Source: Erysipelotrichaceae bacterium (GTDB lineage Bacteria; Bacillota_I; Bacilli_A; Erysipelotrichales; Erysipelotrichaceae). From it: 64,000 nt of DNA. Below are positions 38,752 to 41,675 of this stretch, piece after piece. The notes under the pieces are model-generated. The model was not told where the DNA came from and searched no databases. It worked only from the letters and a program-made list of their open reading frames with translations. The position numbers and the translations under genes are program-made. The stretch's first letter is position 1. The number at the start of each line of letters is the position of its first letter. The stretch spans positions 1-64,000 of the forward strand of contig JAFOLW010000034.1 in the NCBI GenBank assembly GCA_017419165.1. Direction: 5' to 3'.

Positions 38752-40077
38752 ATGAGAAAATTTCTAGCGATCATTATATGTAAAATCACCAAAAAGATCT
38801 GCAAGTATTTCGGAAGGGGATCTTCATTCCCCGGCCAGCTTGCTTTGAAGATCTGCCCGGACATCCTTTCAAGAGTCAGGCTTCCGGAAAACATCATCGC
38901 CGTTTCCGGTTCCAACGGCAAGACTTCGACGGTCGAAATGATCCACGGGATCGTTGAGAATGCCGGCCTGAGCCTGGCTTACAACTATGAGGGCTCCAAT
39001 CAGATCGAAGGCGTGACGACCCTTGTTTTGTCCAATTGCGACAATGCGGGAAGATTTCAGAAAGACGTCCTGCTGATCGAAGCCGATGAGAGATATGCGA
39101 AGTATATCTTTTCCTACATCACGCCGAAGTATTATGTCATCAACAATCTCTATCGTGACCAGATGACCAGGAACGGTCATCCCGAATATGTGCTCTCCGA
39201 TATCGCCAAGTCGATCCGTGAGGGCAGTACACTGGTCTTGAATGCCGATGATCCTCTGATCTCTTCCCTGTCGGTACGTTTCGATAACGATGCCGTCTTT
39301 TTCGGCATCGAAGAAAACCCTTATGTCTCGGAAGTCTGCAAGAGCGTTTATGATGACGGTTATTACTGCCCGGTCTGCAAGAAGAAGATGGTCTATGAAT
39401 ACCGGCAGTTTTCTCATGTGGGAAATTACGAATGCGCAAGCTGCGGCTTCAAGAGGCCGGATCCGAATTATAAGATCACCGATCTCGATCTGGAAAAAGG
39501 AAGGATCACGATCAACGATCGCACGTCGATCGACCTGGCTTTGCATACGATCTTCAATGCCTATAACGTGCTGGCTGCGTATTCGATCGGCTCTTTGCTG
39601 GGGATCGAAGAGAAGATCATCATCGATACTCTGAATGATTATCTGATCGCTAACGGGAGGATCAAGCGCTTCAAGATCGAAGACAAAGAAGGAACCCTGC
39701 TCATATCCAAACACGAGAACACCATCTCTTATGACCGCAACATTGAATATGTGACTTCCAAGGAAAAGATCACGCTGCTGCTGATCATCGATGATATTTC
39801 CCGGAAATATTTTACTTCCGATACTTCCTGGCTCTGGGACATCCGTTTTGAGATGCTCGGCAAAGAAAACGTGGCAAAGATCGTCGTTGCCGGAAAATAC
39901 ATCTCCGATGTGGCGATCCGTCTGCAATATGCCGGTGTCGACATGGAAAAGGTCGTCTTGTTCCGGCATACGGCGGATGCGGTGAACTATCTCAAGGATC
40001 AAAGCGAGGGCGAACTGTATGCTTTGACCTGCTTCTCCGATGAAGGAAAGCTTCTCAAGGAGGTCGTGACGTTATGA
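38752..40077 (+). CDS. murT: Lipid II isoglutaminyl synthase subunit MurT
   Basis: 441 residues, Mur-ligase fold. The ATP loop is AVSGSNGKTSTVEM near residue 52; MurT's zinc ribbon is seen as CPVCKKK and CASCGFKRPD around 205-240; DTSWLWDIRFE near 355 holds the conserved Asp thought to be catalytic. MurT activates the D-Glu carboxylate of lipid II for amidation, and normally receives ammonia from GatD. All key motifs of MurT look intact. It overlaps gatD by 4 bases. The mRNA appears leaderless. Confidence 0.93.
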   Translation: MRKFLAIIICKITKKICKYFGRGSSFPGQLALKICPDILSRVRLPENIIAVSGSNGKTSTVEMIHGIVENAGLSLAYNYEGSNQIEGVTTLVLSNCDNAGRFQKDVLLIEADERYAKYIFSYITPKYYVINNLYRDQMTRNGHPEYVLSDIAKSIREGSTLVLNADDPLISSLSVRFDNDAVFFGIEENPYVSEVCKSVYDDGYYCPVCKKKMVYEYRQFSHVGNYECASCGFKRPDPNYKITDLDLEKGRITINDRTSIDLALHTIFNAYNVLAAYSIGSLLGIEEKIIIDTLNDYLIANGRIKRFKIEDKEGTLLISKHENTISYDRNIEYVTSKEKITLLLIIDDISRKYFTSDTSWLWDIRFEMLGKENVAKIVVAGKYISDVAIRLQYAGVDMEKVVLFRHTADAVNYLKDQSEGELYALTCFSDEGKLLKEVVTL

Positions 40078-40760
40078 GGATCTTGCATCTTTACCCGAAT
40101 CTGATGAATCTGTACGGAGACTACGGGAACCTGAGCGTTCTCAAGAAACACCTGGAAGACCAGGGAGCGGATGTTCAGATCGACAGGAAAGAGGTCGAAG
40201 AGAGTATCGATCTTTCTCTGTATGACATGATCTATATGGGGTCGGGGACCGAATCCGCGCAGCTGATCGCCTTGAACGATCTGATGAAATACCGTCATCA
40301 TCTGAAAAAGGCCGTTGATGAAGGCAAGGTCGTCTTGTTTACCGGCAACGCCATGGAGCTTGCCGGAAAGAAGATCGATGAACATCCGGCACTGGATCTG
40401 GCGGATTTTGAAACGGAAACGGGCGAGAAACGTTATACCGGTGATGTCATCGTCCGGAACGAACAGATCGGCGAAGTCGTCGGCTTCATCAACAAATCGA
40501 CATCGATCAAGGGCGGGGAGACCAATAAGCTTTTTGATTATGTCTTCCGCCATGTCACACTGAAGGACAACGAATATGAGGGCTTCCGGATCAAAAACTT
40601 CTTCGGGACGCATATCATCGGTCCGGTCTTAGTCAAGAATCCGTGTTTCATGGACTGCATCGTCGGGCTCCTTGTGAAGGATGAATACAAACAGTTCAGC
40701 TATCCTTATGAGGAAGATGCCTATGCGACGACTCTGGAAGAGCTGAAAAAGAGAAAATAG
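40074..40760 (+). CDS. gatD: GatD-like protein lacking glutaminase catalytic residues
   Basis: 228 residues, full length. Overall the match to GatD is clear: LYPNLMNLYGDYGNL, GSGTESAQLIAL, KRYTGDVIV and NFFGTHIIGPVLVKNP. But where GatD has the nucleophile elbow ICGGYQ the sequence reads FTGNAMELAGKK, with no Cys, and the catalytic His of GTYxHGP is Ile (GTHIIGP). The nearby NHGGRTYH segment is also lost. Glutamine hydrolysis should be impossible by the known mechanism. The frame is intact and co-translated with murT, so the protein is probably made and kept as a partner of MurT. Confidence 0.85.
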   Translation: MRILHLYPNLMNLYGDYGNLSVLKKHLEDQGADVQIDRKEVEESIDLSLYDMIYMGSGTESAQLIALNDLMKYRHHLKKAVDEGKVVLFTGNAMELAGKKIDEHPALDLADFETETGEKRYTGDVIVRNEQIGEVVGFINKSTSIKGGETNKLFDYVFRHVTLKDNEYEGFRIKNFFGTHIIGPVLVKNPCFMDCIVGLLVKDEYKQFSYPYEEDAYATTLEELKKRK

Positions 40761-41675
40761 ATGAGTATGGCCTTTCGGTTCGAATGGGAGAGCGTTCTCA
40801 TTCTCTGCCTGCAGGAACTCATTGCCAAGTGGCCTTTCATGAAAGGCCTTTTCATATTCTTCACTTATTTCGGCGAACCTGTTTTTGCGATCGCCGTCGT
40901 CGGTTTTCTTTACTGGGGTTATAAAAAAGAATGGGGAAGGTATCTGATCTTGTGCGTCATGGGGACGCAGCTATTCACGAATATGCTGAAAAACACGTTT
41001 CTGAGGATCCGGCCTTATATGGCCGATGAGAGGATCACTTGTCTCAAGGCACCGGAATCACAGACCGATCTGTACGATCCTTATGTTCAGGGCTTTTCTT
41101 TCCCGAGCGGGCACAGTGCCTGCATCTCTTCATTTGCCGCTGCGCTGCACCTGCATCTGAAAAACAAGAGAGTGGATCTTGTGATGTTCATCCTGACGTT
41201 CTTGGTCGGGATCTCCCGCATCGCCTTGGGAGTGCATTATCCAACCGACGTGCTCGCAGGTATCCTTCTGGGGATCGTATGCGTGTCTTTGATCGGCCGT
41301 CTCTATAAGAAGGTGAAGATCGAAACGCTTTATCTTCTCATCCTTTCAGTCGGCATTGCCGGAACGCTTTTTTGCCGCAGCGAAGACTTTTTTTCGGTCT
41401 TCGGCCTTTCTTTGGGATTCATGGCCGGCGAACGTTTTGAAGAACGCTTCATCGGTTTCAGGAATACGGCCGATCCGATCAGGATGCTTCTGCGTACAGC
41501 CATCGGTGCAGCGATCTTTCTGGCTGTGGATCTGTCATGCAAGAGCTTGTTTGCACGGATCGCTGCCGATCAGGAGATGATCGTCCTCCTTCTGCGGAGC
41601 CTTCGCTATGCGCTCTCCTGTTTCGCTGTGATGGGACTCTATCCGTATCTGTTTTCTTATGGATTCCTGAAATAA
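40761..41675 (+). CDS. PAP2-family membrane phosphatase
   Basis: 304 residues with multiple membrane helices. The three PAP2 motifs are present: KNTFLRIRP, PSGH in FSFPSGHSA, and SRIALGVHYPTDV, carrying the catalytic His residues. It dephosphorylates a lipid phosphate, perhaps undecaprenyl pyrophosphate given its position directly after murT-gatD (stop and ATG adjacent). About 100 C-terminal residues add further helices. Substrate is inferred. Confidence 0.85.
   Translation: MSMAFRFEWESVLILCLQELIAKWPFMKGLFIFFTYFGEPVFAIAVVGFLYWGYKKEWGRYLILCVMGTQLFTNMLKNTFLRIRPYMADERITCLKAPESQTDLYDPYVQGFSFPSGHSACISSFAAALHLHLKNKRVDLVMFILTFLVGISRIALGVHYPTDVLAGILLGIVCVSLIGRLYKKVKIETLYLLILSVGIAGTLFCRSEDFFSVFGLSLGFMAGERFEERFIGFRNTADPIRMLLRTAIGAAIFLAVDLSCKSLFARIAADQEMIVLLLRSLRYALSCFAVMGLYPYLFSYGFLK

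Follow-up and report, generated by a model that had tools for sequence, protein, structure and literature searches.

A Cys- and His-less branch of the MurT/GatD family as a candidate for the enzyme that starts a rare type of peptidoglycan cross-bridge

The window, a stretch of 64,000 nucleotides from an Erysipelotrichaceae bacterium (contig JAFOLW010000034.1), encodes a MurT/GatD pair in which GatD has neither the catalytic Cys nor the catalytic His and MurT has changed in step with it. Judged by sequence, MurT*/GatD*, names that we coined for the Cys/His-less branch of MurT/GatD, is a coherent, neofunctionalised branch of this family (Table 1). We give an even chance to the reading that MurT*/GatD* would be an ATP-dependent ligase that couples lipid-linked D-Glu with an amino acid, GatD* being retained as a partner without catalytic function. 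The pair, relatives of which occur in many gut and acetogenic bacteria, is a candidate for the enzyme that starts a rare cross-bridge type.

Table 1. The murT*-gatD* locus of the window: genes, motifs and adjoining gene
Feature	Position	Strand	Remarks
murT*	38752..40077	+	Mur-ligase subunit, 441 aa: middle domain, zinc ribbon, MurT C-terminal domain
ATP P-loop GSNGKTST, MurT residues 53-60	38908..38931	+	G53-S59 invariant in 26 sequences
MurT interface loop RDQMTRNGH, residues 135-143	39154..39180	+	Classical form RDQMDRFGE
Zinc-ribbon cysteines C206, C209, C228, C231	39367..39444	+	Invariant in the alignment of KHEN-type MurT
K320-H321-E322-N323, altered C-terminal loop	39709..39720	+	Replaces K-N-P; two residues longer; invariant (26 sequences)
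DTSWLWD	39820..39840	+	Equivalents of S. aureus D349 and of the interface Trp (PMC6113224, PMC6085368)
ATGA, 4-base overlap of murT* stop and gatD* start	40074..40077	+	
gatD*	40074..40760	+	Subunit of class-I-amidotransferase fold without catalytic Cys or His, 228 aa
Former nucleophile elbow TGNAMEL, residues 90-96	40341..40361	+	Gly91 at the Cys94 position
GatD* Arg120	40431..40433	+	Equivalent of S. aureus Arg128, kept; invariant in the GatD* alignment
GTHII, GatD* residues 178-182	40605..40619	+	Ile at the His189 position
PAP2-family membrane phosphatase	40761..41675	+	ATG immediately after the gatD* stop

The window GatD belongs to the GATase_3 family (E 7e-11) and aligns with the GatD proteins of Staphylococcus aureus and Streptococcus pneumoniae across most of its length. 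Compared with S. aureus GatD, the elbow ICGGYQF has become TGNAMEL, with Gly for Cys94, and GTYLHGP has become GTHIIGP, with Ile for His189; ENHGGRTYH is gone and RYTGD is present. This alignment bears out the sequence-only reading, which had described a GatD devoid of Cys and His that lost NHGGRTYH and kept the KRYTGD strand; the 4-base overlap with murT that it reported is likewise there (ATGA, 40074-40077). The AF2 model of GatD* (pLDDT 95.3) matches the S. aureus GatD structure with a Z score of 28.9, and the score against the NCBIfam equivalog is 97 bits vs the cut-off of 450 bits. MurT*/GatD* should not hydrolyse glutamine. The residues invariant in the GatD* alignment are M11-G15, Y17-N19, G56, G58, T59, E60, T90, G91, N92, R120, N140, T179, G183, P184 and N189, among which T90, G91, N92, E60, N140 and T179 are new. 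The R120 position is Arg in 77 of the 87 divergent pairs described below, and its S. aureus counterpart, Arg128, captures glutamine (PMC6085368). This kept arginine suggests that the rebuilt pocket of GatD* may still hold an amino acid; binding of ammonia or glutamine would also be consistent with this arginine and the kept negative gate.

The window MurT matches the Pfam families Mur_ligase_M and MurT_C, scores 233 bits with the NCBIfam MurT model vs an equivalog cut-off of 800 bits, and yields an AF2 model (pLDDT 86.6) whose best PDB match is Streptococcus pyogenes MurT (Z 33.7). The sequence-only reading had called this MurT intact, which is half right: the ATP site, the four zinc cysteines and the DTSW.WD region are retained, whereas two loops, the C-terminal KNP loop and the one at the interface, have altered together with GatD. 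The conserved KNPxG motif of the C-terminal loop, which is thought to contact the ATP ribose, is lost and now reads SKHENTIS, two residues longer, and in the RDQM loop, the interface loop of MurT (PMC6085368), RDQMDRFGE has become RDQMTRNGH. Among 26 MurT sequences of the KHEN type, the P-loop, the zinc cysteines and K320-H321-E322-N323 are invariant, and so are the metal ligands (Glu and Asp-Glu), the Asn for the acceptor and the Trp at the interface, residues whose roles are taken from PMC6085368 and PMC6113224. More broadly, the P-loop Lys (Lys59 equivalent) is present in 85/85 readable divergent pairs, the Mg-binding Glu and the acceptor-carboxylate Asn are found in all readable MurT* sequences, and the gate and interface residues are retained in MurT*/GatD*. 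The Mg-coordinating His that other Mur ligases require in the middle-domain loop (PMC6085368) is absent from MurT*, with Gln or Ser at that site. In profile alignments that include one MurD sequence, each of the three MurT* groups has its K-x-x-N loop in register with SKATN of MurD, which adds D-Glu; classical MurT does not fit this register. In Mur ligases, the incoming amino acid is held by the C-terminal domain, and an amino-acid pocket is described for MurE.

These changes extend far beyond the window. A first scan of species genomes gave 33 loci; in all the close ones, which come from Erysipelotrichaceae and Clostridia, the elbow is of the TGN type and the His is missing. A MurT_C survey of the window's family divided its genomes into 34 with high-scoring, 19 with low-scoring and 25 without matches, and the two score classes reappear among sampled genomes of the class and of Clostridia. 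After the loci were read, 170 pairs were classified: 87 combine the long K-x-x-N loop of MurT with a GatD that lacks both Cys and His, 79 combine the short K-N-P loop with Cys (78 of these also with His), and four fall outside both kinds, two being of a third kind (G117, G106) and two broken or aberrant. None of the 170 classified pairs joins the long loop to a GatD with Cys. The 87 long-loop pairs have Gly (84) or Asn (3) at the Cys position and never His at the His position. In the MurT tree, built by a quick search with no bootstrap, a single branch parts both kinds (SH-aLRT 96; 0 of 500 shuffles as low). By loop signature, MurT* falls into three or more subgroups, KHEN, K[DG].N and KQENP.

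Alignment of homologues, which the sequence-only reading had proposed for mapping Cys and His, yielded losses common to the 87 related pairs and to 12 same-genus loci; all 12 of these loci that were read carry the altered pair with a full-length GatD without Cys. Taken together, related pairs with this loss number more than 100 and come from Erysipelotrichaceae, other Bacilli and Clostridia and from a single actinobacterial genome, and the homologues exclude a sequencing error or a shift of Cys and His to nearby positions. That the pair is functionless, as the missing catalytic residues of GatD might intimate, is scarcely conceivable: its frames are open in more than 100 genomes, the ligase residues are invariant, GatD* has acquired invariant residues of its own, and dN is far below dS in both murT* and gatD* (for a close gatD* pair, dS is about 0.8 vs dN of 0.03). 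Purifying selection on both genes is strong, and conservation together with dN vs dS rules out gene decay.

Several loci depart from the two main kinds. In the third kind (L083/L084, from G117 and G106), the MurT loop reads K--NATSLS and GatD has Glu in place of Cys and Arg in place of His; in the tree, this MurT is a neighbour of the classical type, and in L084 the pair is followed by a MurJ-like protein. One genome (G360) carries an intact classical pair (L164) and a second copy (L179) with a classical-type GatD in which Cys is replaced by Gly and His is kept, and a MurT with C-terminal motifs that are not alignable. At another locus (L105, from G065), the gene order is reversed, with gatD* upstream of murT*.

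Since MurT changed in exactly those pairs in which GatD is Cys-less, and since the altered loop falls in the MurD register, the nucleophile would no longer be ammonia and would most simply be an amino acid. MurT*, like classical MurT, would phosphorylate the alpha-carboxyl of D-Glu at stem position 2 of the lipid-linked peptidoglycan precursor, and an amino acid, rather than ammonia supplied through GatD, would then attack the acyl phosphate with its amino group. As the opening residue of a group B interpeptide bridge, the amino acid would be glycine or a diamino acid; alternatively, it would form a similar substituent of the alpha-carboxyl. GatD* would be retained in a structural role, its pocket having been rebuilt. 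Complex formation, the acceptor carboxyl, the nucleophile and the role in group B or similar walls are what we infer.

The distribution of the two kinds of pair bears on the product. A classical and a MurT* pair occur together in 0 of 53 genomes in the window's family and in 0 of 28 genomes reached via MurT* loci; such near-exclusion fits two enzymes competing for one carboxyl. Strict mutual exclusion is rejected: two Eubacteriaceae genomes (G667 and G668; L222 and L223) carry a KQEN-type MurT* together with a classical MurT, a classical GatD having been read in L226. This coexistence speaks for a product other than D-iGln. The sequence-only reading had listed a new role for the pair among its possibilities, and it is the one that we favour, because MurT*/GatD* forms a separate branch and coexists with the classical pair in G667 and G668. 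In addition, six genomes (G317, G320, G323, G325, G326 and G332; L107-L113) hold a KHEN pair and a pair of the second subgroup, and one (G072) holds three MurT*/GatD* pairs. These multiple pairs, along with the three or more subgroups with distinct loop signatures, are also what could be expected if the enzymes acted on a different envelope acceptor or made a different product, such as another lipid-linked precursor or a second substituent, with specificities that differ among subgroups. We regard this alternative as quite unlikely, given that the acceptor-side residues (Asn of GSN/GAN and the Asp-Glu pair) are as in classical MurT, that one operon includes mraY and murD, and that MurT* and classical MurT nearly exclude each other.

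That operon, in G064, has the order mraY-murD-murT*-gatD*; in G023, a flippase-family gene is followed by murT*, gatD*, two unrelated genes and murC, and in G072, murT*-gatD* is accompanied by a gene for a MurJ-like flippase. These contexts place the pair in precursor assembly. In the window, the gene for the PAP2-family phosphatase is probably cotranscribed with gatD*, and its product could serve in recycling of the lipid carrier. A PAP2-family protein also adjoins gatD* in 12 relatives, and the start of this gene right behind gatD* is an arrangement that recurs in many relatives.

The main rival to an amino acid ligase is ammonia-dependent amidation: the pair would still make D-isoglutamine, from free cytoplasmic ammonia, and GatD* would be kept since MurT is inactive alone. 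Free ammonia as the source of the amide had also been raised by the sequence-only reading, and we rate this rival as unlikely overall while taking it seriously. Ammonia is plentiful in the gut and rumen, from which many of the carriers come, Gly replaces Cys in 84/87 pairs, and the gate and interface residues are conserved. In S. aureus, the C94G mutation of GatD, at the same position, abolishes glutamine use, MurT with GatD C94G retains the use of ammonia at pH 8.5, and neither subunit is active alone (PMC3266927). At pH 7.5, however, ammonia is used by neither the wild type nor C94G (PMC3266927), and this behaviour implies that the change from Cys to Gly alone would produce an ammonia-dependent amidase that is of questionable use when the pH is neutral. 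Moreover, amidation with free ammonia leaves unexplained why the KNP loop has changed universally and in linkage with GatD and why it matches MurD, as well as the genomes with two MurT* pairs and those with MurT* beside a classical pair.

It is very improbable that another amidotransferase feeds ammonia to MurT* in trans, as the sequence-only reading had suggested. An asparagine-synthase-type amidotransferase gene does adjoin murT*-gatD* in one genome (L104, G036), but this is one locus only, and the window's close relatives have no conserved amidotransferase neighbour. On the other side of the pair, this locus carries an Asp/Glu racemase and a protein of a carbamoyl-phosphate-synthase-like family. 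A second gatD was not found in the 73%-complete genome of the window, where the only other GATase_3 match is HisH; with that match and the Cys-less GatD of all 12 same-genus loci, the suggestion goes unsupported.

The amino acid ligase reading, to which we now return, points to walls of group B. Cross-bridges of group B peptidoglycan begin at the D-Glu alpha-carboxyl, the very group that MurT activates, and what is joined there is an amino acid, not ammonia (Schleifer and Kandler scheme); we know of no ligase identified for this step. Group B walls occur in Acetobacterium woodii and Eubacterium limosum and, within the window's own family, in Erysipelothrix and Holdemania. The scheme of peptidoglycan types is reviewed in PMC11382707, which lists wall type B 2-alpha for Eubacterium, a genus related to A. 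woodii, and PMC4156110 treats a Gly-D-Glu peptide as a hallmark of walls of the B type. Among the genomes analyzed, G434 has an RnfC identical at 443/443 positions to 9eri_C, deposited for the A. woodii Rnf complex (PMC11889175), which identifies the genome as that of A. woodii or of an extremely near relative. Its single MurT found is a MurT*, with the motif RIKQENPDTLQ, and its GatD* contains LVTGTTISLFG and IFTNTLGPIL. In its family, 28 genomes have the KQEN type only, 6 the classical type only, 2 both and 4 neither, as judged by motif in the listed loci and by score in the remainder. With one named carrier, the link to group B bridges is suggestive and not a test. Somewhat short of even confidence, we propose that MurT*/GatD* would start group B bridges, that the dead glutaminase would now be an amino-acid-binding partner, and that the subgroups would select different amino acids. 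Our literature search, mostly of openly accessible papers, found no description of a GatD without Cys or of a gene for group B bridges.

Several Actinomycetota show weak MurT_C matches. One actinobacterial genome (G969; 1.6 Mb, GC 0.50) encodes a Cys-less, His-less pair (L308:12661-14851), with SKGENDTATS in MurT and SGNVADLLG and ATWIIGP in GatD, adjoining an amino-acid-kinase-family gene, probably for a carbamate kinase. A cytochrome oxidase motif was not found in G969, which looks like an anaerobe. This genome, considered as a second test of the group B link, in Actinobacteria, was set aside because an anaerobe-like organism is no test of the group B Microbacteriaceae.

The available family models would at best label the pair as lipid II isoglutaminyl synthase, despite the missing residues for glutamine use. 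If MurT*/GatD* is an amino acid ligase, the gene for the group B bridge step would be in hand and the wall type would become readable from the genome; many gut bacteria should then have no D-iGln, part of the NOD2 ligand, or an altered form of it. If the pair uses ammonia instead, nature would have provided an example of an amidotransferase that abandoned its glutaminase. Either reading is now testable in A. woodii.

Among the closest known systems, MurT*/GatD* resembles the MurT/GatD lipid II isoglutaminyl synthase of S. aureus, S. pneumoniae and S. pyogenes, with which it shares an overlapping gene pair and the same folds, as well as the zinc ribbon, the ATP site, the acceptor Asn, the interface Trp and Gly, and the glutamine-capturing Arg. 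Unlike the classical enzyme, it combines a GatD* without catalytic Cys and His with a MurT* in which a longer K-x-x-N loop replaces KNP, and both subunits are far under the NCBIfam equivalog cut-offs. With MurD and the other amino-acid-adding Mur ligases, MurT* would share, by homology, ATP-dependent acyl-phosphate chemistry, and the loop is in the SKATN register. In contrast to MurC-MurF, MurT* has no match to the N-terminal UDP-MurNAc-binding domain (the Pfam matches being only Mur_ligase_M and MurT_C) and, like classical MurT, no Mg-coordinating His, whereas a zinc ribbon and a GatD-like partner are present. The archaeal pseudomurein ligase pMurC (6vr7), named as a peptide ligase, has a MurT-like cysteine ribbon and a profile match of 129 bits over the middle domain, but is a single protein with its own N-terminal domain that acts in pseudomurein and has no GatD partner. 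The MurT-like proteins of the archaeal Methanopyrales and Methanobacteriales (PMC11915815) are similar to MurT* in having no active glutaminase partner; in these archaea GatD is absent, whereas the branch described here has kept GatD* without its catalytic residues.
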